From assembly GCF_001475935.1 (NCBI RefSeq), contig NZ_LDQA01000014.1, positions 1 through 64,000 of the forward strand: 64,000 nucleotides of DNA, given 5' to 3'. This document shows, in pieces, positions 10,855-23,559 of this stretch. The position numbers were made by a program, and so were the translations under genes. The number at the start of each line of letters is the position of its first letter. Position 1 is the first letter of the stretch. Source of the DNA: Aureimonas ureilytica (lineage in GTDB: Bacteria; Pseudomonadota; Alphaproteobacteria; Rhizobiales; Rhizobiaceae). The notes beneath the pieces are model-generated. The model had not been told where the DNA came from and did no database searches. It worked only from the letters and a program-made list of their open reading frames with translations.

Positions 10855-11445
10855 GTGTCGAAGCTCACCCCAGCGCAGGAGGACGCCGCCGACCGGGCCG
10901 AGCGTCTGATGTCCATGTCCAAGGCAGCGGCCCTCATGGGTCGCGACAGGAACACGCTTGCCGCCTGGGCTGCCAAGGGCATGCCTATCGCCCGGAAGGG
11001 TGAGAGCGGGTCCAGTCACCTCGTCGACCTGAAGGAAGTGATCTTGTGGAGAGAGGAGCAGGTCCGTCGTGAAGAACGGACCCGATTTCCAGGCGCAGGC
11101 GAGGACGGCCTTGGAGAAGGCATGGGAGGTCGCATGTCTCCATCTGACCTCCTGAAGCTGGAGAACCTCAAGCTCACACGTCTGAAGGTCGGACAGGCGG
11201 CGGAGATCCTCGTCGAGCGGTCGATCCCCGAGATGGCCGAGGAGCGTGCGTACGGCATTCTCCGTCAGGCCATCATGGCCCTGCCCGAGCGCCTCACTCG
11301 CGAGATGGCGGGCTTCCCCGAAGAGAAGAAGCTGATCTGGCGCCAGAAGGCGCAGGGGTGGTGCCGGGAGGCGCTCAAGCAGTCGGCCAAGGTGATCGCC
11401 GACGCCATGGGCACCGTCCCGACGAGACCAGACGATGCGGTATGA
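10855..11445 (+). CDS. Terminase small subunit, Nu1-like DNA-packaging protein
   Basis: A 196-residue protein from GTG 10855. Residues about 20-45 (MSKAAALMGRDRNTLAAWAAKGMPIARKG) form the winged helix-turn-helix of lambda Nu1-type small terminases, followed by SSHLVDLKEVILWREEQ and a long helical region for oligomerisation and contact with the large subunit. Family members bind the cos site and load the genome into the motor. It overlaps the large terminase gene by 11 bp, the normal order for this family. Confidence 0.85.
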   Translation: MSKLTPAQEDAADRAERLMSMSKAAALMGRDRNTLAAWAAKGMPIARKGESGSSHLVDLKEVILWREEQVRREERTRFPGAGEDGLGEGMGGRMSPSDLLKLENLKLTRLKVGQAAEILVERSIPEMAEERAYGILRQAIMALPERLTREMAGFPEEKKLIWRQKAQGWCREALKQSAKVIADAMGTVPTRPDDAV

Positions 11446-13675
11446 GGATCCCGAACTCCTCGCCCGATGCGCCGAACTCACGGAGATCGGAGCCGACGCC
11501 TATCTGAAGGCCGCCGCTTTGGCTGCAGCCAATCTCGTTCCCAGCGAACCGGAAGACATTCCGACCTGGGCGAAGAACAACGTCATCATTCCGACGTCGG
11601 TCTCGGACCGGTCGGGGCCCTACGAGATGAACGCGATCCAGTGCGCGATCGCACGGATGTGGCAGGACCCGTTCATCCGGCAGGTCGACTACCTCAAGAT
11701 CGCCCGCGCCGGCGCGACGCTGTTGATCTCGACGGGCATGGCCTACCACACCGGCCATCTCGGCTTCGACTCCCTGTTCTTCGAGAGGACGGAGCCGGAC
11801 GCCCAGGCATTCCACGACAAGAAGCTGTACCAGATACTCATGGCGTCGCCGTCCCTGGCTGCCATGATGCGGCCAGACACGAAAGCGGGCATCCAGGACG
11901 GCTGGTCGGATCGCATCTTCCGGAACGGCGCGTCCCTGCAGCTTCGCTCAGGCAACAAGCCGATCAAGTCGATCAAGGGCTTGTTCGTCGCGATCGACGA
12001 GGCCGGCGACGAGAAGTACTCCAAGGGCCCGGAAGGCAACATCGTCACCGTCGTGCGGGGTCGCCTTCAGGAGTTCTGCGCCCCGATCCTGTTCGTCTGC
12101 GGCACCCCGACCGTCGTCGGCTGCTGCATCTCGGACGAGTACAGCCGCTCGGACAAGCGGCATTGGTACATGCCCTGCCCCCACTGCCAGGAGATGATCC
12201 GGTACGAGCCTGACGTCCGGCCGGGCCGGCGCGACCAGGACACCGGGACCGGGCTCCGGTACGTGCGCAACGAGCGCGGTGTCGTCGAGGACTCCTGGTA
12301 CGCCTGCGCGTGCGGCGGACTGATCGAAGAAACCTCCAAGATCGAGATGCTCGAGGCCGGCGAGTTCCGGGCTACGGACATCGGCGAGCCCGGTCATGTC
12401 GGCTGCTACACCTCGGCCGCTCACTCCACCGATCCGCAGATGACCTGGCGCCACGTCGGGGCGAACCACCATGCGTCGCTCCGGAACGAGAAGACGCGCC
12501 AGGCATACGTCAACCTCACCCTCGCCCAGCCGTACGACCCGGCCCCGCCGATCCTCGTCGACACGACGAAACTTCAAGAGAACGTCCTCGACGCCGAGGC
12601 TCTCCCCGACGGCATCGACTGCCCCGAGGACGCGGTCTACCTCGTCGCGGCGATCGACAACCAGAAGGGCGTCAGGGACGATCCCCGGAACCCGCCCCGC
12701 GGCGAGATGACGGTCATGGCGGCCTGCCGGAACAACCGGTGGCACGTGATCGCTCACCACGTCATCTCGCACCTCGTGCAGGAGCGCGACGGCCACACCA
12801 AGAGGATCGGCTTCGACCCGTTCGACGAGGACTACGCCGACCAGGTGTGGGACATCCTCGACAAGGAGTACGTCGCCGGTGACGGGCGCCTCCTGAAGAT
12901 CAGGAAGTGCCTGGTCGACGTCGGCTGGCAGACCGAGGCCGCATACAAGTTCTGCACCCTGCCCGGCTCGCGTGAGCGTGGCATCCTGCCGATCCGTGGC
13001 GACACGACCGAGCGGGCCGGCCGGCGTGTGACCCTCCTGCCGACGAACGGGACGCTCCGGAAGTCCAAGAAGTCGGGCCGGAACTACCTCTGGATCGGCA
13101 CCAGGGATGCCAAGGACGAGTGCGCCCGTCGCCTCGCCATCCCCGCACCGGCCCCCGGATCGATCTCGTTCTCCCGCAGTTTGCCCGAGACCTACTTCGA
13201 GGGCCTGATCGCCGAGCGTCTGGTCGAGACGAAGCCGGGCGTGTCGACGTGGGTCCAGACCGGATCGAACACGGGCGAGCCGTGGGACTGCCTTCAGTAC
13301 TGGTACGCTGCCAAGGAGCTTGTGATCGTGAAGAACCGCCGTCTCCGTGAAGAGGTCGACGCCGTCGATCCCACCGTGGCCCAGGCCGCGATCGAAGCCC
13401 GCCTGGCGACCGAGGAAGCATCGACGATCGTCGAGGGGGCGACGACCGATCTGGTGGTCCAGCCTCCCTTGCAGGGTTCCGGCTCGGACGCCGATCCTCC
13501 CTTGCAGGGTTCCGGCTCGGACGCCGATCCTCCCGAGCAGGAAGCCGTCTCGTCGTCGGGGCTTCGTATGCGCGTCGTTGAGCGCAAAACCCGGCGGACC
13601 GAGACGACACCGGAGGTGACCAGCAGGATCGAACGCATCCGCAGGCGCCAGTCCCGGTCTGGCGTGGGGTGGTGA
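11435..13675 (+). CDS. terL: Terminase large subunit, GpA family
   Basis: A 746-residue protein of normal GpA length. The ATPase domain has LKIARAGAT at about residues 87-95, the family's variant Walker A, and FVAIDEAGDE (Asp188-Glu189) as Walker B. A zinc-binding insertion uses CPHC (Cys248, Cys251) and a later CACGG pair. The C-terminal nuclease part contains AAIDNQKG and LVDVGW, fitting the acidic residues of the RNase H-like fold. The protein cuts and pumps phage DNA into preformed heads. The tail after residue 670 holds two copies of an 11-residue repeat. The gene appears intact although the rest of the head module is broken. Confidence 0.92.
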   Translation: MRYEDPELLARCAELTEIGADAYLKAAALAAANLVPSEPEDIPTWAKNNVIIPTSVSDRSGPYEMNAIQCAIARMWQDPFIRQVDYLKIARAGATLLISTGMAYHTGHLGFDSLFFERTEPDAQAFHDKKLYQILMASPSLAAMMRPDTKAGIQDGWSDRIFRNGASLQLRSGNKPIKSIKGLFVAIDEAGDEKYSKGPEGNIVTVVRGRLQEFCAPILFVCGTPTVVGCCISDEYSRSDKRHWYMPCPHCQEMIRYEPDVRPGRRDQDTGTGLRYVRNERGVVEDSWYACACGGLIEETSKIEMLEAGEFRATDIGEPGHVGCYTSAAHSTDPQMTWRHVGANHHASLRNEKTRQAYVNLTLAQPYDPAPPILVDTTKLQENVLDAEALPDGIDCPEDAVYLVAAIDNQKGVRDDPRNPPRGEMTVMAACRNNRWHVIAHHVISHLVQERDGHTKRIGFDPFDEDYADQVWDILDKEYVAGDGRLLKIRKCLVDVGWQTEAAYKFCTLPGSRERGILPIRGDTTERAGRRVTLLPTNGTLRKSKKSGRNYLWIGTRDAKDECARRLAIPAPAPGSISFSRSLPETYFEGLIAERLVETKPGVSTWVQTGSNTGEPWDCLQYWYAAKELVIVKNRRLREEVDAVDPTVAQAAIEARLATEEASTIVEGATTDLVVQPPLQGSGSDADPPLQGSGSDADPPEQEAVSSSGLRMRVVERKTRRTETTPEVTSRIERIRRRQSRSGVGW
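13463..13528 (+). repeat. 33-bp tandem duplication inside the terminase gene
   Basis: Two exact adjacent copies (13463-13495, 13496-13528) encode the 11-residue unit PPLQGSGSDAD twice in the C-terminal tail. The length is a multiple of three, so the frame is kept. It looks like a recent slippage or duplication event in a disordered linker. Confidence 0.95.
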
Positions 13676-13676
13676 T

Positions 13677-13931
13677 GTGAAATTCGATCTGTTCCGGTCC
13701 CTGTCGGACGCCGAGCTGGACGCTGCGATCAAGGCGTTGGTCACCCAGATCACGTCCGGCGCCACGACGATCACGTCACCCGATGCCGGCAGCGTCGGAT
13801 ACATGACGACGAGGGAGGCGGAACGCCTGGTCGAGAAGATGGAGCGCAGTCGCTGTTCCCGCCTCGGCATCCCGTTCGATTCCGGGCGTCGCATCAGATA
13901 CACCAAGGTTTACGTGAGGCAGGGCCTGTGA
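13677..13931 (+). CDS. gpW-like head-tail joining protein
   Basis: An 84-residue protein from GTG 13677, one base after the terminase stop. The form is LSDAELDAAIKALVTQITSGATTI, a beta hairpin region, then MTTREAERLVEKMERSRCSR, matching the small gpW family, which sits between terminase and portal genes in lambda-like phages and plugs the connector after packaging. Its stop overlaps the GTG of the portal gene. Confidence 0.75.
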   Translation: MKFDLFRSLSDAELDAAIKALVTQITSGATTITSPDAGSVGYMTTREAERLVEKMERSRCSRLGIPFDSGRRIRYTKVYVRQGL

Positions 13932-15478
13932 CCAAGCGCACCACGACGCCGGCCGCACCGGCCGTCCGCAAGACCCGTCGCGCACCCGAGAGCAAGGCGA
14001 CCGGTCGGCGCGCCGCCGTGTCCCGTACCGGCCCCCTTGCCGGCCTGGACGTCGCCGCCCGGCACCCTCTCCTGCCACGACTCCACGCGCCGTCGCCGAC
14101 GCTGTCTGTCCGTCAGCACGCGTACGAGCGCCTCCTGTCCGGCCACCTCTACGAGCAGGAGCCGCTGGTTACGCGCCTCGTGAACTCAGCTTGCGAACTC
14201 TACATCGGCAGAGGACCGGTGCCGGTGTCACGGTTCGCGGACCTCGACGACCTCTGGTGCGCGGTCTCGGAGAACTTCGACAACATCGACGATAGGTCCT
14301 TCGGCGCCATGCTGCGTCAGGCCGGCCACCGCACACTGATGGTCGCAGGCGAGTTCTTCGTGCGTCGCCGCGACCGCACGGATTCACCTGAGGCCGACTT
14401 CCTCGAGGTGCCGATCGAGTGGGAGGTTCACGGTCCGCAGTACGTGCCGCTTGACTTCACCCAGGTCGAGGGCGGCCTGCGCTGGACATCGGGCATCGCG
14501 ACTTACAGGTCGAAGGCTATCCGGTACAAGTTCTGGTCCGAGGACCCCTACGACCCGTCCCTGTCGACGCGCCTGCTCGACCTCGACCGGTCCGAAATCT
14601 ACCATGTCGCCGATCCCTCCCTGGGGTCGAGGCGCGGTCGACCGATTCTGGCGCCGGCCCTGCTCAGGGCGATCAAAATGACCACCCTGGAGGACAGCGA
14701 GCTTCGCAGGAAGCAGGTTGCCAGTCTCATGTCCGTTTTCGCGGTCCGGCCTGCCGAGGCGTCCGACGACGAGTCGATGCTGCCCACCGACGAGGAGGTC
14801 GACGAGATGCTCGACGCCGTGGCGCTGACGCCCGGTGGCGTCTTCCAGCTACCCTACGGCTTCGACATCAAGACGTTCGAACCGAAGGACGAAGGGGCGA
14901 ACTTCGAGCGCGCTCTCCGGTGGCAGGTGATGATGATCGCAATGGCGGTCGGCATTCCGTTGAACGAGGTACTCGGTGACGAGGGCGTCGAGCGGTGGGG
15001 CCGCATGATGTCCCAGCGCGTCCAGCGCCAGGCCGATCTCGTGCACGAAATGTACGAGAAGCGCCTTCTGAACCGCATGTGGCGCGACTTCATCGACGCA
15101 GCAATGGCGGCCGGTCTCTGGGAGCCGCCCGCCGACCTGAAGCCGTGAAAACTCTACGCCTGCGACTGGCAGTGGCCCGTGATCCCGGCCGCCAGGTTGG
15201 ACCAAGAGCTGAATGCGCGGATGGGCGCCGTCGATCGCGGTATCATTCCGCAGGGCCATGTCACTCGGGCGCTGTTTGGAATGAAGCCGGACGTGGCTGC
15301 TCGCGCCGGTGCCCGAGACCAGGCCCGCTTGCAGAGCCTGGGCTTCCAGGCAGGACAGGCCGTGTGGAAGCCGGACACCGAGGTCGCAGCCCGTATCCAG
15401 GCCACGGTCGATGCCGAGGAAACGGCCGAGCGGGACCTTGTGGACAAGGCTCTCCTCGAGGACTCGGTCTTGGACTGA
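13928..15478 (+). pseudogene. Lambda-family portal protein interrupted by an in-frame TGA
   Basis: The frame from GTG 13928 encodes a lambda-type portal: RLVNSACELYIGRGPVP near the start, the DRTD/DFLEV segment, EIYHVADPSLGSRRGRP, and FQLPYGFDIKTFEPKDEGANFE with VGIPLNEVLGD. After residue 406 (PADLKP) there is TGA at 15146-15148. The same frame then continues without interruption as KLYACDWQWPVIPAARLDQELNARMG up to a stop at 15478. That second part, about 110 residues, corresponds to the usual portal C-terminus. CGA to TGA is the simplest origin. The truncated product would lack part of the clip and C-terminal region, so heads are unlikely to assemble normally. Confidence 0.85.
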
Positions 15479-17603: not shown

Positions 17604-19295
17604 CTAGGCTCGCATTCGAAGTCGGTACTTTGCCGCCTCGCCTTTCCTATCCATCAGATCAAGTTCGTTCCGAGCTAGATCGAAAGCCTGCTGGTACGTC
17701 ACACCGTAGGCGAGCGCCCTGTAGAAGCCTCTCGTGAACATGGCCGCAGCATCGTCGTCGATCGAGTCATCGCAGCCGATCACGGCATCCACGTGAGCGT
17801 CCATCTCACCCGCCATCGAGTCGGAGTAGCAGGCGTTCAAGACCACGCACTTCACCCCTCCCACCAGACCGATCAGGTTCGCCAAGGTGCTGGCAGGGAT
17901 GTCGTATGAGTTTCCGTCCCTGTCCTCGAAGACGAGAAGACCGGTGTCGCCATGACCACTAAAATGGACGACCTCCGGCCGGTTGTTCAGCATCTCGGAT
18001 TGAAGCTGATCGGCTCGGACCGCCCACGCGTGCTCGACATCAACCTTGACCTTCGGATCCCGGACGGTCGCGATCTGCGTTTTCAGATCGTTCGCCTCCC
18101 GACCGATGTTCAACGGATCCTGGTCCAAGGGGCTCGCGGCCAGAAACAGAACCTTCATGACGTGAACCTTTCTGGTGAGATCTCGGGCCTGACGGAACAT
18201 TGTATCGAGGCTGCCGGTGTTCCCGAACATGTCGATCATGCCCAGTTGCACGTCACGGTCCCGCAGCCGTCCATATAGGGCCGTCCGCTCCGCGCTCACC
18301 AGAAGGCGATCGAGAAGAGCCGGATTGGCCGCGACGATTTCGAGCACCTTCTCGCCGTAGGGTGCGAAGGCATCGGAGAACTTGGCGAAATGCACGGCGA
18401 TCAGTCCTTTGACGCCGTCGTCGGAATCGAGGTCGTACCAGTCGAGGGTGAGGTCCTGAATGCCGTCGTAGAATGTCCGCGACACGCCCTTCGCGAGGCC
18501 CATGCGCGCCTCGACCTCCGACGCGTACGTCCCCCGGTAGACGAGGTCGTGTCGAAGGGTCTTGTCGCCGATGCGCTCCGCACCGAGCTGATAGAGCTTG
18601 GCCTGGACGTTGACCGGTTGCTTCTCGATCTCGTCGAATCGCATGCCCAGGTCGTCCAGCGAGAGACGACGGTTCTCCATGACGGACCAGACGCTGTACT
18701 GACGAACGATCCTGTCGTCGTACTGACAGAGTTGCCGGACGATGGCCCCGTTCGTGTGGCGCGGGTGCAGAAGGTTCTGAATGTCCCGGTTCAGGCCGAC
18801 TAGGAGGAGCGCGAGTTTCAGAACCTCCGCATCCGACTTGTCGATGTCGATGACGAGATCCTTCATCTCGATCCTTCGAGGATCGGTCGTCTGCATGGAG
18901 GCGAGGATCCGGATGGCCGGATCGATGCTGGGCAGGTCCGCGACCATGTCCAAGGCACCGTTGTAGACCTTCGAGAGCGCGGCGACTGCTGCGCCTACGA
19001 TCTCGGGTTCGTCCTCGAACCGCCTGATGGCGTTGCTCAGGTAAAGTCCGCTTCCTTGCCTGGTGCCCAGTCGCGCAAGCGCATTGAGCCCCCAACGGAC
19101 GACCTTCTTGTCCGTTTCACCCAGCAGGAAGCCGCAGATCAGCCGCTCGAAGGCGTGGGCGGCCTCGGCGTTGAGAACGTCACCCTTTCGGTAGAGTCCC
19201 GTGAGATCCTGCAGAGCCACCTTCTTCCTGAAGGCCGATCCGTTCTCGATCTCGAACTTGAGTAGGGCCGTCTGCCCATCCGATATGGTGGGCAC
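17604..19295 (-). CDS. Helical-repeat protein with C-terminal CHAT (caspase-like) protease domain
   Basis: A 563-residue protein starting at GTG 19295, which shares one base with the stop of the upstream HARE-HTH gene (TAGTG), so translation is coupled. Residues about 1-370 are helical and look like HEAT/ARM-type repeats (VVRWGLNALARLG, VGAAVAALSKVYNG). Residues about 380-540 are a CHAT domain: MKVLFLAASPLDQDPLNIG opens it, VVHFSGHGD supplies the catalytic His (about 448) and VVLNACYSDSMA the catalytic Cys (about 489), followed by GFYRALAYGVTYQQAFDLAR. CHAT domains are clan CD proteases related to caspases and separins, used as effectors in bacterial conflict systems. I infer a latent protease released by its partner. 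Location in a prophage cargo slot supports a defence role; direct proof is lacking. Confidence 0.85.
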   Translation of the reverse strand: MPTISDGQTALLKFEIENGSAFRKKVALQDLTGLYRKGDVLNAEAAHAFERLICGFLLGETDKKVVRWGLNALARLGTRQGSGLYLSNAIRRFEDEPEIVGAAVAALSKVYNGALDMVADLPSIDPAIRILASMQTTDPRRIEMKDLVIDIDKSDAEVLKLALLLVGLNRDIQNLLHPRHTNGAIVRQLCQYDDRIVRQYSVWSVMENRRLSLDDLGMRFDEIEKQPVNVQAKLYQLGAERIGDKTLRHDLVYRGTYASEVEARMGLAKGVSRTFYDGIQDLTLDWYDLDSDDGVKGLIAVHFAKFSDAFAPYGEKVLEIVAANPALLDRLLVSAERTALYGRLRDRDVQLGMIDMFGNTGSLDTMFRQARDLTRKVHVMKVLFLAASPLDQDPLNIGREANDLKTQIATVRDPKVKVDVEHAWAVRADQLQSEMLNNRPEVVHFSGHGDTGLLVFEDRDGNSYDIPASTLANLIGLVGGVKCVVLNACYSDSMAGEMDAHVDAVIGCDDSIDDDAAAMFTRGFYRALAYGVTYQQAFDLARNELDLMDRKGEAAKYRLRMRA

Positions 19296-20212
19296 TAGAA
19301 CCTTTCATCAGCTTCACAGAATGCGTCGAGAGTGGCCTTGGTCCACGGCTCGAAGTCATCGATGTCGTTATGGGTCCTCAGATCTAGCCAGCGCGGATCG
19401 TTCAGAGACAATCGGCGTGTCGTCGGCTCGAACCATGCGGGACAGGTCCAGTCCATCAGGACGAGCAGAACATCCCTACGATCGTCCTCGTGCACCACCA
19501 CGGACCCGCGAGGCACAGGGTCCGGTATCTCCCCTCCATGCATCGCAACTGCGGAGATATCCAGATCGGACATAAGTGCGTTCAGCGAGTTCTCACGCGT
19601 TCCGAAGTCGCCGTTCGAGAAGAGCGTGCAGTCGTAGAAGCTCACGACGCCGGGGAACCCGATCGTTCGCTTGTTCATGAACGTGTCCTGATCGGTCCGA
19701 TACCGACCCGTACGATACGACAGAACCTCGGTACCCCGGCGAACGACGGAGAAGGTCCACACGACGAGGCGGTCTCCGGCCTCCTTTCGCGACTCAAGAT
19801 AGTGGATCGCCTTGCAATCCTCCGCTTCTTGCAGAAGCCCATGCCAGTCATGCAAGAGAGCGCTGTCGCAATGGGCGATGAAATCTCTGTCGATGCCGAG
19901 GAAGGGGGCGACGTGGAGATCGCGGATGCGCCGTCGCGCCTCGAACTTCTCCTTGAACTTCGCGGGGATCGTAGGATCGGCGACGAGTTCGTTCAGGAAG
20001 AAGACGCCTGGTTCGGTCCGAAAGAATGCCGAATACGAGCTGTAGAGCACATCCTCACTGAGGCGGGCCTGCAGCGTCTTGACCTGCGTCCGCCCGTAGA
20101 GCCTCTTCGGCACGATTCCGGCGGCGTATGCAGAATCCAGGATGCCGGACGGCGTCATCGGACGCCGAGCAGCACGGAGCACCTGTTGGGCTATTTCGAG
20201 ATACGAATCCAT
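19295..20212 (-). CDS. HARE-HTH domain protein with degenerate NUDIX-like C-terminus
   Basis: A 305-residue protein from ATG 20212 (GTG 20227 also possible). Residues about 1-70 match the HARE-HTH winged helix: YLEIAQQVLRAARRPMTPSGIL, a basic turn, then TLQARLSEDV and FFRTEPGVFFLNEL. HARE-HTH domains occur in restriction-linked, RNA polymerase delta and ASXL proteins and are thought to read DNA or modified DNA. The C-terminal half resembles NUDIX-type phosphoesterases found with HARE domains: VVWTFSVVRRG, TIGFPGVVSFYDCTLF and ENSLNALMSDLDI in the place of the NUDIX box. The usual Arg-Glu-x-x-Glu-Glu residues are absent there, so it may bind rather than cleave a nucleotide. It is the first gene of a two-gene operon with the CHAT protease and is the likely sensor. 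Confidence 0.7.
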   Translation of the reverse strand: MDSYLEIAQQVLRAARRPMTPSGILDSAYAAGIVPKRLYGRTQVKTLQARLSEDVLYSSYSAFFRTEPGVFFLNELVADPTIPAKFKEKFEARRRIRDLHVAPFLGIDRDFIAHCDSALLHDWHGLLQEAEDCKAIHYLESRKEAGDRLVVWTFSVVRRGTEVLSYRTGRYRTDQDTFMNKRTIGFPGVVSFYDCTLFSNGDFGTRENSLNALMSDLDISAVAMHGGEIPDPVPRGSVVVHEDDRRDVLLVLMDWTCPAWFEPTTRRLSLNDPRWLDLRTHNDIDDFEPWTKATLDAFCEADERF

Positions 20213-20291
20213 CAGTCCAGGTTGCACATCGGGATTGCCCGAAGTTAGACGCCAATTTCGCGCTCAGCAAGCGCCCTGCGGTCGCAGCACA

Positions 20292-20907: not shown

Positions 20908-21343
20908 GTGGGCAAGGTCATCAGCATCGAGAAGGCGCGTGGAGGTGCTCGGTTCAAGCCGATGGCCACCCGTGGTCTGCGTGCTGCCGCGACCCCACCG
21001 ACGAGTTTCGACCCGAAGGCGCGAACGTTCACGTTCGTCCTCGCGACCGAGCGCCCCTGCCGGACCTACCGCTGGGCGGGCTGGGACGTCGTCGAGGTCG
21101 ACGAGGTCCTGCCGATGTCTGGTCTCGTCGAGATCGAGCGCCTGGTCGGTTCGCCGATTCTTAACTCGCACTCTTCCTGGAACCTGCGTGACGTCATCGG
21201 CGTGATCACATCCGCGAAGGTCGAAGGCGACAAGCTCGTCTGCACCGGACAGCTTTCCGAGCGGTCCGACGTCGCCGACATCGCCCGTGACATCGGGGCC
21301 GGTGTCCTGACGTCCATGAGCGTCGGCTTCTCCATCCTCGAGG
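20908..21343 (+). pseudogene. Prohead protease, truncated by a deletion
   Basis: From GTG 20908 about 145 codons encode an HK97-type (S78) prohead protease start: VLPMSGLVEIERLVGSPIL, then NSHSSW with the catalytic His, GDKLVCTGQL, and GVLTSMSVGFSILED with the catalytic Ser. Similarity stops near 21340. After that the frame reads Arg-rich nonsense through the end of another gene whose own frame is one base off. The usual ending of the family with its catalytic Glu and EISLV segment is missing. The frame remains open into the next tail gene, so a run-on product is possible but would not be functional. A deletion joining head and tail modules is the simplest explanation. Confidence 0.8.
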
Positions 21344-21574
21344 ATGGCATCGCCTTCGTCCGTCTGGCTCGGGGCCTCCCTGTTCGGGGTCCTACGCTGG
21401 CCGGTAGCTTCCACGTCCGACGGCCGGCCGCTGCTGCGCGTGTCGACCGACGAGTTCGGTGCGCAGGTCCGCGAGTACCGACCCGTCATTCAGACGGTGG
21501 TCGTCGGGTGGACCGTGTCGGGGGGCTCCGGGGACCGCGACGCCGGGTGGACGCTGAATTTGGAGGAGGTCTGA
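21344..21574 (+). pseudogene. C-terminal remnant of a tail gene
   Basis: A frame of 76 codons ending in TGA at 21572-21574, which overlaps the ATG of the next gene (TGATG), the normal spacing of coupled tail genes. It reads PLLRVSTDEFGAQVREYRPVIQTVVVGWTV and ends WTLNLEEV. It has no start of its own with a good ribosome binding site and follows directly on the broken prohead protease, so it is the end of a gene whose front was deleted. The parent protein is not identifiable beyond its position in the tail region. Confidence 0.65.
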
Positions 21575-23559
21575 TGACCCTGTGGATCGATGAACGTGGG
21601 CTACCCTTCAACGCCGCGACATCGTGTGTCGAGGCGAACGCCTACGTCTACGGCTTCAAGATGTCGGTATCGGAAGGCCAGGCGACCGAGTTCGAGTACG
21701 AGGCTCCGAACCGCGGGCTCAGTGCCGTCCTGACTAACGCCTTCGAGCGCCTTGTTCACGTCGCCTGGTCTCCGACCGGCCTCGCCTCGGACGCCATCCA
21801 CCTTGCGATGGGCTACATCGTCGAGTCGCCCGGCGACCTGCTTGCCGAGACGACGACCATTCGTGTGCGTTGCGCACCGATCGACCTCGACGCGGCGATC
21901 CTCGCGTGGGCGATGGTCAATCTCGTCAATCGTCCGAACACCGATCTGAGGTTCTCGGAAGATCCCGAGAGCGTCGACACGTACATCATCGGACGCTGCG
22001 TCGATTATCATGTCCATCCGACGACGCATGCCGTTTCGGTGTCGGACACCCTGACTGGCGACAGGGTCGTCGACCTGACCGCCGAGCTTGTCGAAGAGGC
22101 CGGCATCACTTGGTCGGCCGGTTCATTCGGTGAGCCGCAGAAAGTCCTCTCCCTGGAATTCGAATGCCAGTGGACGCAGGAGGCCAAAGGCGTCGTCGAC
22201 ATCGCGTCCATGATCTCACCGTTTGCAACAATGGACAGCGACCCAGGCTCCATCCTGCAGTCGCCCGTCACGGTGCGCGACGTCGACGGGATCGATATCG
22301 TCTCCGGGGGGATTCGCGCTTCGATCGAACACTGGCGTGAGGTTGAATTCCGACTCGCCGGATTCGAGGCCGTCTACGAGACAGAAGTGCTTAGCGAGAA
22401 GCTCGTCGACAGCGAAGAGGCCGCAGTCGGGACCGGCAATGGCGGGACGGCCTTCAGGTACAGGTTCAAGACGAAGCCATCCTGGGAAACTCTATCTCTC
22501 GATACCTTCCGAGACGAAACCGGAACCATCCCGCCGGGAACGATTCCTGACAACGAGAACGTGAGCATCAATGACTCCGAGATCCGCCGATCCACGTCGG
22601 CGACCGTGGCTTACGAGGCGAGCCGCGTCCGCGTCATCGACTACATGGTGTCATGGGATTTGTCCCAGGCTAGGTCCGAGAAACTCGTCATCCAGATGGC
22701 ATTCCCTGTTCCGTCCTCCCCCCGTGAGAAGCCGGAGGTGCTGACCGCCTCACTGCGCGACGACTACCTCGAGCCGCCTGCCCCGTCGTACGACTACACC
22801 GTCGCGTACAAGGCGGGCGACGTCGTGACGTCCGGCGCCAGGCGGTACCGAGCGACAAAGGACATCGAGCCCGGCAAACCGGCACTGCTCCTGTCGAACG
22901 GGTGGGCTCGGTATGCGGAGAGCGAGGAGCGCATGTCCGTCGTCCGGTCCGCCCAGGCGATCGAGTTCCAGCAGCACCTGCTATGCCGTCTCCTCCGTGA
23001 AGGTCGTCGGAGGCTCCGCTCGGTCAACCTTCAGATCGAGGTGCCGTTCTCCGTCGGCGTCGGTTTGTCGACACGCGACTCCGTAAGGATCGTCGTTCCC
23101 TGGACTGAGGCCGAAGACAAGGCCATCGTAGGGAAGGTCATCGGCATCGAGATGTCGATGGACGGAGATGGCAAGGCGACCTGCAGCCTGACCTTGGGCG
23201 TCTGCATGTACGGCTCGACGAGTGGCCGTCCAGGCGACCTCGACGACCTCTACGCTCCACCGATCCCCCCGATCGATCCGGAAAGCACCGGCGACTTCGC
23301 TCTCGACAAGCGGGTCCGGGCGCTCCGGGCTGGCAACCCGAGAGCCATCGTGAAGTCGGCGCAGGTCCAGAACACCGACACAGCCCAGGTCGCCGAGATG
23401 GCCACGCTCGCTGGCCTCGGCGCGGATCCTGCCCTCGCATCGGTCCGTCTGCCGACCAGGCTCGTCATCGATTTCGAACCGCTCGGCGAAGAGGACGAGA
23501 TCCACACCGACTACATGATCCAGTCGACGCTACTGGACGCACCCAGGGGGTACGCATGA
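21574..23559 (+). CDS. Phage tail protein (baseplate/hub-like)
   Basis: A 661-residue protein; ATG 21574 follows GGAGGAGGTCTG and overlaps the preceding stop. The sequence is mostly beta with regular acidic turns (VDGIDIVSGGIRASIEHWREVEFR, SEKLVDSEEAAV) and a C-terminal region with VGLSTRDSVRIVVPWTEAEDKAIVGKVIGIEMSMDGDGKATCSLTL in pieces, as in phage hub proteins. It contains no protease or glycosidase motif that I can see. Synteny after terminase, portal and protease, and before a small acidic gene, supports a tail role. Intact by length, though its neighbours upstream are deleted. Confidence 0.6.
   Translation: MTLWIDERGLPFNAATSCVEANAYVYGFKMSVSEGQATEFEYEAPNRGLSAVLTNAFERLVHVAWSPTGLASDAIHLAMGYIVESPGDLLAETTTIRVRCAPIDLDAAILAWAMVNLVNRPNTDLRFSEDPESVDTYIIGRCVDYHVHPTTHAVSVSDTLTGDRVVDLTAELVEEAGITWSAGSFGEPQKVLSLEFECQWTQEAKGVVDIASMISPFATMDSDPGSILQSPVTVRDVDGIDIVSGGIRASIEHWREVEFRLAGFEAVYETEVLSEKLVDSEEAAVGTGNGGTAFRYRFKTKPSWETLSLDTFRDETGTIPPGTIPDNENVSINDSEIRRSTSATVAYEASRVRVIDYMVSWDLSQARSEKLVIQMAFPVPSSPREKPEVLTASLRDDYLEPPAPSYDYTVAYKAGDVVTSGARRYRATKDIEPGKPALLLSNGWARYAESEERMSVVRSAQAIEFQQHLLCRLLREGRRRLRSVNLQIEVPFSVGVGLSTRDSVRIVVPWTEAEDKAIVGKVIGIEMSMDGDGKATCSLTLGVCMYGSTSGRPGDLDDLYAPPIPPIDPESTGDFALDKRVRALRAGNPRAIVKSAQVQNTDTAQVAEMATLAGLGADPALASVRLPTRLVIDFEPLGEEDEIHTDYMIQSTLLDAPRGYA

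Follow-up and report, generated by a model that had tools for sequence, protein, structure and literature searches.

What is a pair of overlapping genes doing between the genes of a phage, on the strand opposite to them? The question is raised by a 64,000-nucleotide stretch of Aureimonas ureilytica (contig NZ_LDQA01000014.1, positions 1 to 64,000), here called the window. In it, base 19295 is common to the stop codon of gene 1 (19295..20212, minus strand, 305 residues; ATG at 20212, with a GTG at 20227 also possible) and to the GTG start of gene 2 (17604..19295, minus strand, 563 residues), within the string TAGTG. Both frames are open, and the coordinates of the overlap given in the original prediction, which was made from the sequence alone, are correct. 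That prediction made gene 1 a sensor, which would unleash a protease encoded by gene 2. We consider it reasonably likely that the pair is a mobile two-gene conflict module, most likely directed against phages or acting against or between mobile elements. As a bacterial immune or conflict module it has probably not been described before. Here, we set out the evidence for this reading from the two proteins, their relatives and their surroundings.

The second product is a predicted CHAT caspase-like protease. Its residues 396-545 match the Pfam CHAT family PF12770 (E 3e-9, 37.2 bits against a cut-off of 24), and in a single-sequence search of the PDB the sole chain at E <= 1 was a solved CHAT domain-containing protein, 8tl0 (E 1.5e-8). 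With a profile of 21 CHAT-type partners from related loci, 8tl0 was matched at E 1e-22 over profile positions 382-550, and the domain is placed at residues 382-550 of gene 2 (17646..18152, minus strand). The predicted catalytic residues, His448 (17952..17954) and Cys489 (17829..17831), both on the minus strand, are invariant in 21/21 partners and are aligned to a His and a Cys of 8tl0; the expected CHAT domain with a His/Cys dyad is thus borne out. The region in front of it is assigned as a helical scaffold (residues 1-345; 18261..19295, minus strand) from tblastn and hidden Markov model matches. Helical repeats had been predicted here, and they are recognizable as HEAT_2 above the Pfam cut-off in the same region of two relatives (L032 and L050; L-numbers label loci of relatives and G-numbers label genomes sampled), but the window protein itself has no HEAT match in Pfam at E <= 1. 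A Pfam scan found no nuclease domain in either protein of the pair.

Gene 1 begins with the HARE-HTH winged helix that had been proposed for it (residues 4-74; 19991..20203, minus strand). The match to Pfam PF05066 (E 8.1e-6, 26.6 bits) is barely over the curated cut-off of 25.9, and it is family-wide, as all 43 gene-1 family members scanned match PF05066 at E <= 1, the best at 2.5e-11. Alignment A6 omits all plasmid rows, L028, L048 and L053-L055. The C-terminal part looks like a derivative of a NUDIX domain without the catalytic box. We call it NUDIX-like because it is homologous to relatives that bear the box, not from a fold. Positions 3-303 of the gene-1 profile can be aligned with L077 (E 3.1e-45) and L078 (1.7e-42), and positions 4-223 with L079 (E 4.4e-19), and each of these three keeps a REL.EEL Nudix box. 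In the alignment to them, the box position falls at residues 187-217 of gene 1 (19562..19654, minus strand), where the catalytic Arg and Glu are missing. The Nudix-box residues R-E..E-E are kept in a single one of the 43 family members (L051, which has a nucleoside-phosphorylase-like, or PNP, partner); in the aligned columns, 40 of the 43 have Asp at the last acidic position. The NUDIX outline with replaced catalytic residues of the original prediction is therefore supported by the alignment to box-bearing HARE proteins and by the loss of the box in the window, but a NUDIX fold is not proven: the Pfam NUDIX match in relative L057 reaches only E 0.078, under its cut-off, and a PDB search with the whole gene-1 family profile gave no relevant chain (best E 0.33).

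The proteins of L077 and L057/L078 combine HARE, NUDIX and a P-loop kinase. Their homology to gene 1 spans profile positions 3-303, and they differ from it in keeping the Nudix box, in carrying the extra kinase and in having no scaffold-type partner detected in the stretches examined. They possibly represent a nucleotide-handling module. A Ham1-like gene lies near the HARE-NUDIX-kinase gene in L057.

The relatives show that the pair is a unit and that its effector is exchanged. A GTDB contig scan with five gene-1 protein queries returned 47 loci with gene-1 relatives, assigned to alphaproteobacterial genera or groups, or only to Proteobacteria or bacterium. An effector gene lies directly downstream of gene 1 in 37 of the 47, and an adjacent partner is present in the 7/7 viral contigs described below, so that the linkage expected in relatives is borne out. 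In the 37 loci the gene order is constant, and the gap from gene 1 to the effector runs from -62 to +15 nt, with overlap lengths being upper bounds since the earliest start was taken for gene calls. The other ten loci (L026-L029, L033, L035, L048, L053-L055), where the pair is broken, truncated or cut by the contig, were left unclassed for effector; L045 was classed although it is cut at a contig end. In L055 (8001-9523), from Octadecabacter, a partial HARE gene has a CHAT fragment next to it on the other strand.

In 36 of the 37 loci, the first ~345 residues of the partner match the window scaffold by tblastn; the remaining partner, in L051, has a PNP domain and no detectable scaffold, also with profiles. 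The constant gene 1 and scaffold are combined with three kinds of C-terminal end, which are exchanged effectors: CHAT in 18 loci (L009-L025, L030), an Asn-rich/helical end in 16 (L031, L034, L036-L047, L049, L052; a class drawn by eye) and PNP in three (L032, L050 and L051; PNP_UDP_1 at E 6.8e-15, 3.5e-13 and 1.1e-10). The PNP partners also match the PADLOC family 'Effector, PN-superfamily' (E 3.1e-16, 4e-15 and 5.1e-12). The original prediction does not foresee that CHAT alternates with other effectors. Four members scanned with the Asn-rich/helical end match no Pfam family at cut-off, and a PDB profile search with this end gave 18 matches at E <= 1, the best being 9hnh at 1e-5 with no stretch passing alone. 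The others, among them many designed helical proteins, did not do better than E 0.0035. An amyloid-signalling motif was considered as a candidate for this end. A recurrent arrangement of an Asn-rich stretch, a Gly/Gln-rich core and then a helical hydrophobic end is seen in L007, L034, L036-L044, L047, L071, L073, L074, L086 and L087 (alignment A10).

Two further loci, L075 (3113-5879) and L076 (335-3057), have HARE/NUDIX-like genes beside PNP-type proteins. These proteins have other N-termini, and the loci were not counted as members of the pair. In L075 the two genes are convergent on opposite strands and overlap, and an HD-like and kinase-like gene (kinase-like by eye) precedes them.

How the effectors were exchanged is indicated by two gene-1 trees. 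L008, L069, L070, L072, L075 and L076 were left out of both; tree B is also without L049 and L052, which have long branches, and L081, a viral-contig record that repeats the L021 locus, was not added. All CHAT rows fall on one side of a branch with support of 100/100 in tree A (21 rows) and 100/99 in tree B (24 rows). Support for the branch that unites CHAT with some of the Asn-rich rows is 95/90 and 87/79, respectively. The three effector labels need at least four changes in both trees; when only the supported branches are considered, fewer are required (2 to 3 for the Asn-rich label, 2 for PNP). L051 is the first to branch after the HARE-NUDIX-kinase outgroup (97/90 in tree A, 100/99 in tree B), a position that is possibly wrong because long branches meet there. 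We infer that the path may have led from a HARE-NUDIX enzyme by way of the PNP and Asn-rich types to a single capture of CHAT.

The pair is carried by both plasmids and phages. CHAT-type pairs are found on Agrobacterium Ti plasmids and on a plasmid location in Leisingera, a Paracoccus plasmid carries a pair with the Asn-rich end, and on a Sulfitobacter plasmid a fragment of the partner precedes an ISL3-type transposase gene. Among viral contigs, seven loci were found with the gene-1 alignment as query, all with an adjacent partner (four CHAT, three with the Asn-rich end; the end in L085 looks frame-disturbed). Gene 2 as query matched nothing in the viral contigs, and gene 1 had no match among 50,697 named phage records. 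Near the pair on the viral contigs, 7/10 proteins match PHROGs families, including a terminase (L083), a tail protein (L082), and two proteins of methyltransferase/ParB type with one related to helicases (L084). The family phrog_2045, of unknown function, occurs near the pair in both L086 (5796-6710) and L087 (11558-12646). A second CHAT-type protein adjoins the pair on the viral contig L082 (10746-11975, minus strand; profile match, PADLOC PDC-S66).

In sampled genomes, the gene-1 profile matched 11/397 of the order and 2/385 of the class at E <= 1e-10 and 3/398 of the phylum at 1e-6, the window's own genome being counted each time. A scaffold-bearing partner is present in 7 of the 11 order genomes, that is, the window and six others (two CHAT, four Asn-rich), three of which coincide with loci of the GTDB scan (G777/L019, G970/L014, G996/L043), so the samples overlap. 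The remaining order matches are the HARE-NUDIX-kinase proteins L077 and L078 and the genes with PNP-type neighbours, L075 and L076. The class match L079 and the second phylum match L080 are other HARE proteins; in L080 (4446-5327, minus strand), a HARE-HTH is followed by a GIY-YIG nuclease-like domain, by eye. In the samples of the class and the phylum, the window's own genome is the only one with the pair, so the pair is rare. Its sporadic distribution within the order counts for a conflict module.

Mobile carriage also invites another explanation, namely an addiction pair resembling a toxin-antitoxin system, in which gene 1 restrains the CHAT protease and loss of the element frees it; the pair would then stabilize mobile elements rather than defend the cell. 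The putative inhibitor gene comes first and is tightly coupled to its partner, the pair travels on plasmids and phage contigs, and on one plasmid it lies near repABC. Some copies even keep gene 1 without an effector: a transposase-interrupted allele in three Sulfitobacter/Roseobacter records (L006, L026, L028), and L029 and L033. These copies do not discriminate between the explanations, as loss of the effector alone also fits a sensor. Antitoxins are usually short, however, whereas gene 1 encodes a long protein made up of two domains. We also sought a conserved operator upstream of gene 1 in 14 regions of 250 bases, and rejected it: no exact 10-mer was widely shared and no palindrome was shared, the only exceptions among the 10-mers being L013/L014, which are nearly identical, and three single matches that look like chance. 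This exact-match test is crude and gene 1 may yet be autoregulated, but the result speaks against addiction as well. Overall, we regard an addiction pair as unlikely.

Alternatively, the pair could be a physiological module instead of a conflict system, with gene 1 as an NrtR-type transcription regulator that responds to nucleotides and gene 2 as a protease of the stress response. NrtR, which regulates nicotinamide adenine dinucleotide metabolism, joins a helix-turn-helix to a NUDIX-like ligand domain, and gene 1 resembles it in domain make-up, although HARE is a different helix-turn-helix family. The sporadic distribution, the exchanged effectors, the carriage by phages and the upstream search, which found no common motif, speak against this reading, and we consider it quite improbable.

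The setting in the window bears on a last explanation. One flank of the pair holds a terminase large subunit (11435-13675) and a portal gene (13928-15148), and the other an open reading frame on the plus strand (20908-23559, 883 residues) with a head/protease-type N-terminus. Head/protease PHROGs match this frame only over residues 24-147, the rest having no PHROGs match at E <= 0.01; because the match is confined to the first ~147 residues, the prophage is possibly rearranged. The G+C content of the pair is 0.602, against 0.645 and 0.649 in the flanks. Compared with the nearest relative, L009, the ratio of nonsynonymous to synonymous divergence (dN/dS) is 0.08 for gene 1 and 0.20 for gene 2, with dS of 1.84 and 1.21, that is, near saturation. 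Alongside these low ratios, the recurrence of the pair in many genera points to more than chance. It is very improbable that the pair is prophage cargo in decay that now has no function in this strain. The possible rearrangement and the 10/47 relatives that are broken or truncated or that run into a contig end would fit decay, but both window genes are full length, the dyad is intact and dN/dS against L009 is low. Twelve window proteins were used as queries, ten from the phage region around the pair and two further out, and among 55 collected loci they matched only the window's own. They matched nothing beside the pair in the other loci of this set; the module is therefore not tied to this phage, and the 'prophage cargo slot' of the original prediction fits this window, with its phage-gene flanks.

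The reading of the pair as a conflict module gains from its neighbours at some loci. We collected 134 proteins from 38 loci, two genes per side, excluding those under 100 or over 800 residues; genes were called from codon usage by a script that overlooked some of the genes annotated in L004 and L005. At 1e-10 they match 122 PADLOC families, with at most two members each among the best 25 of the 122. At 1e-8 they match 139 Pfam families, the best 25 of which include Resolvase (5), Phage_integrase (3), IS66 transposase (2) and Mrr_cat (2), and at 1e-10 they match 105 PHROGs families, the best 25 including integrases, invertases, transposases, one terminase and one tail protein. Ten neighbours picked by size were scanned singly; four match PADLOC families, namely two type I restriction-modification genes (L023), a PifA-like gene (L012) and a methyltransferase (L030), and six match none. 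On a Ti plasmid (L004, 893-20395), the pair lies among further CHAT genes, three TIR genes, one caspase-family gene and two S8 peptidase genes, and the Ti-plasmid region in L008 is almost identical. One upstream gene is common to L013/L014 and two genes to L020/L033, and one related group, probably the five Resolvase members, links L022, L023, L024, L036 and L039.

Is the pair already known under another name? PADLOC 2.0.0 (dated 2023) matches gene 2 only with 'chat' and 'SAVED_CHAT' and has no system-specific match for both genes, either in the window or in the relatives. The pair was not found in the open-licence literature, where absence is weak evidence as bioRxiv was not covered. Both results agree with the original prediction, whose author did not know this exact pair as a described system. 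SAVED-CHAT and the solved protein 8tl0 resemble gene 2 in the C-terminal CHAT domain with aligned His and Cys, but the matches are limited to the CHAT part; the N-terminus of gene 2 is the helical scaffold and its partner is HARE/NUDIX-like. For a SAVED domain, PADLOC SAVED_CHAT covers only residues 416-539 of gene 2, within the CHAT domain, and Pfam has no SAVED family match at E <= 1. In type III-E CRISPR, TPR-CHAT of Craspase also fuses helical repeats to a CHAT protease under the control of a partner sensor (PMC9729208); the sensor and the repeat type differ, and no Cas family (gRAMP/Cas7-11 was sought) was found among the window neighbours scanned in sets of 9, 5 and 10 proteins that include the pair and cover part of the open reading frames. 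Among the domains of defence systems, passages of PMC10952713 name CHAT (Borvo, type III-E CRISPR) and PNP (Cap17 of CBASS, Detocs and others). No Borvo-named family appears among the PADLOC matches, and whether PADLOC includes one was not checked. Like Cap17 and Detocs, the relatives L032, L050 and L051 use PNP_UDP_1 as an alternative effector, with a different sensor. HARE-HTH is fused to restriction endonucleases in a defence setting (passages of PMC12839542 and PMC10853773); these are nucleases, and no nuclease domain was found in the window pair. Passages of PMC7159879 place Nudix, PNPase and HEAT in conflict systems and are without 'CHAT' or 'HARE', and PMC12799240 concerns protease-nuclease and caspase-nuclease defence.

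Several findings weigh against a conflict module. Gene 1 has no match in PADLOC at E <= 1, and the class and phylum matches outside the window's own genome (G262; G484 and G311) are without the pair. A third gene that might supply the CHAT substrate was considered and rejected, as no widely recurring family is found among the 134 neighbours. The neighbour scans, judged from the best 25 of 122 PADLOC and 25 of 139 Pfam families, are without a background control, so that we claim the presence of defence-type neighbours and not their enrichment; of the predicted defence-island context, it is the occurrence of such neighbours at some loci that holds, with enrichment unproven. On the other side, we read the pair as a conflict module because CHAT and PNP occur in known defence systems (PMC10952713). 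Gene 1 is the likely sensor because a role in reading (modified) DNA has been proposed for HARE domains (passages of PMC11037411 and PMC10853773) and because HARE is here combined with a NUDIX-like domain.

We propose the following mechanism, in which we infer the docking, the trigger, the substrate and the growth-arrest outcome. The gene-1 protein would serve as a sensor or gate, with HARE binding DNA and the NUDIX-like domain, lacking its catalytic box, binding a nucleotide-type ligand or relaying the signal. It would dock on the helical scaffold of its translationally coupled partner. Upon the trigger, the exchangeable C-terminal effector would act; in this case the CHAT protease would cleave a host or invader protein, and this cleavage may halt growth or infection. 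Such a combination of a constant sensor and scaffold with interchangeable effectors is typical of abortive-infection-type systems.

More specifically, and only tentatively, the pairs may form an undescribed alphaproteobacterial immune family, in which a receptor derived from a HARE-NUDIX enzyme senses phage-altered DNA or nucleotides and the effector has been swapped among three kinds, namely a nucleosidase, a domain of the Asn-rich/helical type and, in a single event, a caspase-like protease. If this is true, one sensor has moved between nucleotide depletion and proteolysis as routes to stop the cell. We know of few bacterial systems in which a sensor controls a CHAT protease, and the pair would provide caspase-like signalling in a compact form, with two proteins. 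Its NUDIX-like domain, which lacks the catalytic box, is a plausible ligand pocket, and the natural effector exchanges separate the sensor from the killing step. The pair would make the proposed role of HARE as a reader of nucleic acids or their modifications in immunity directly testable.

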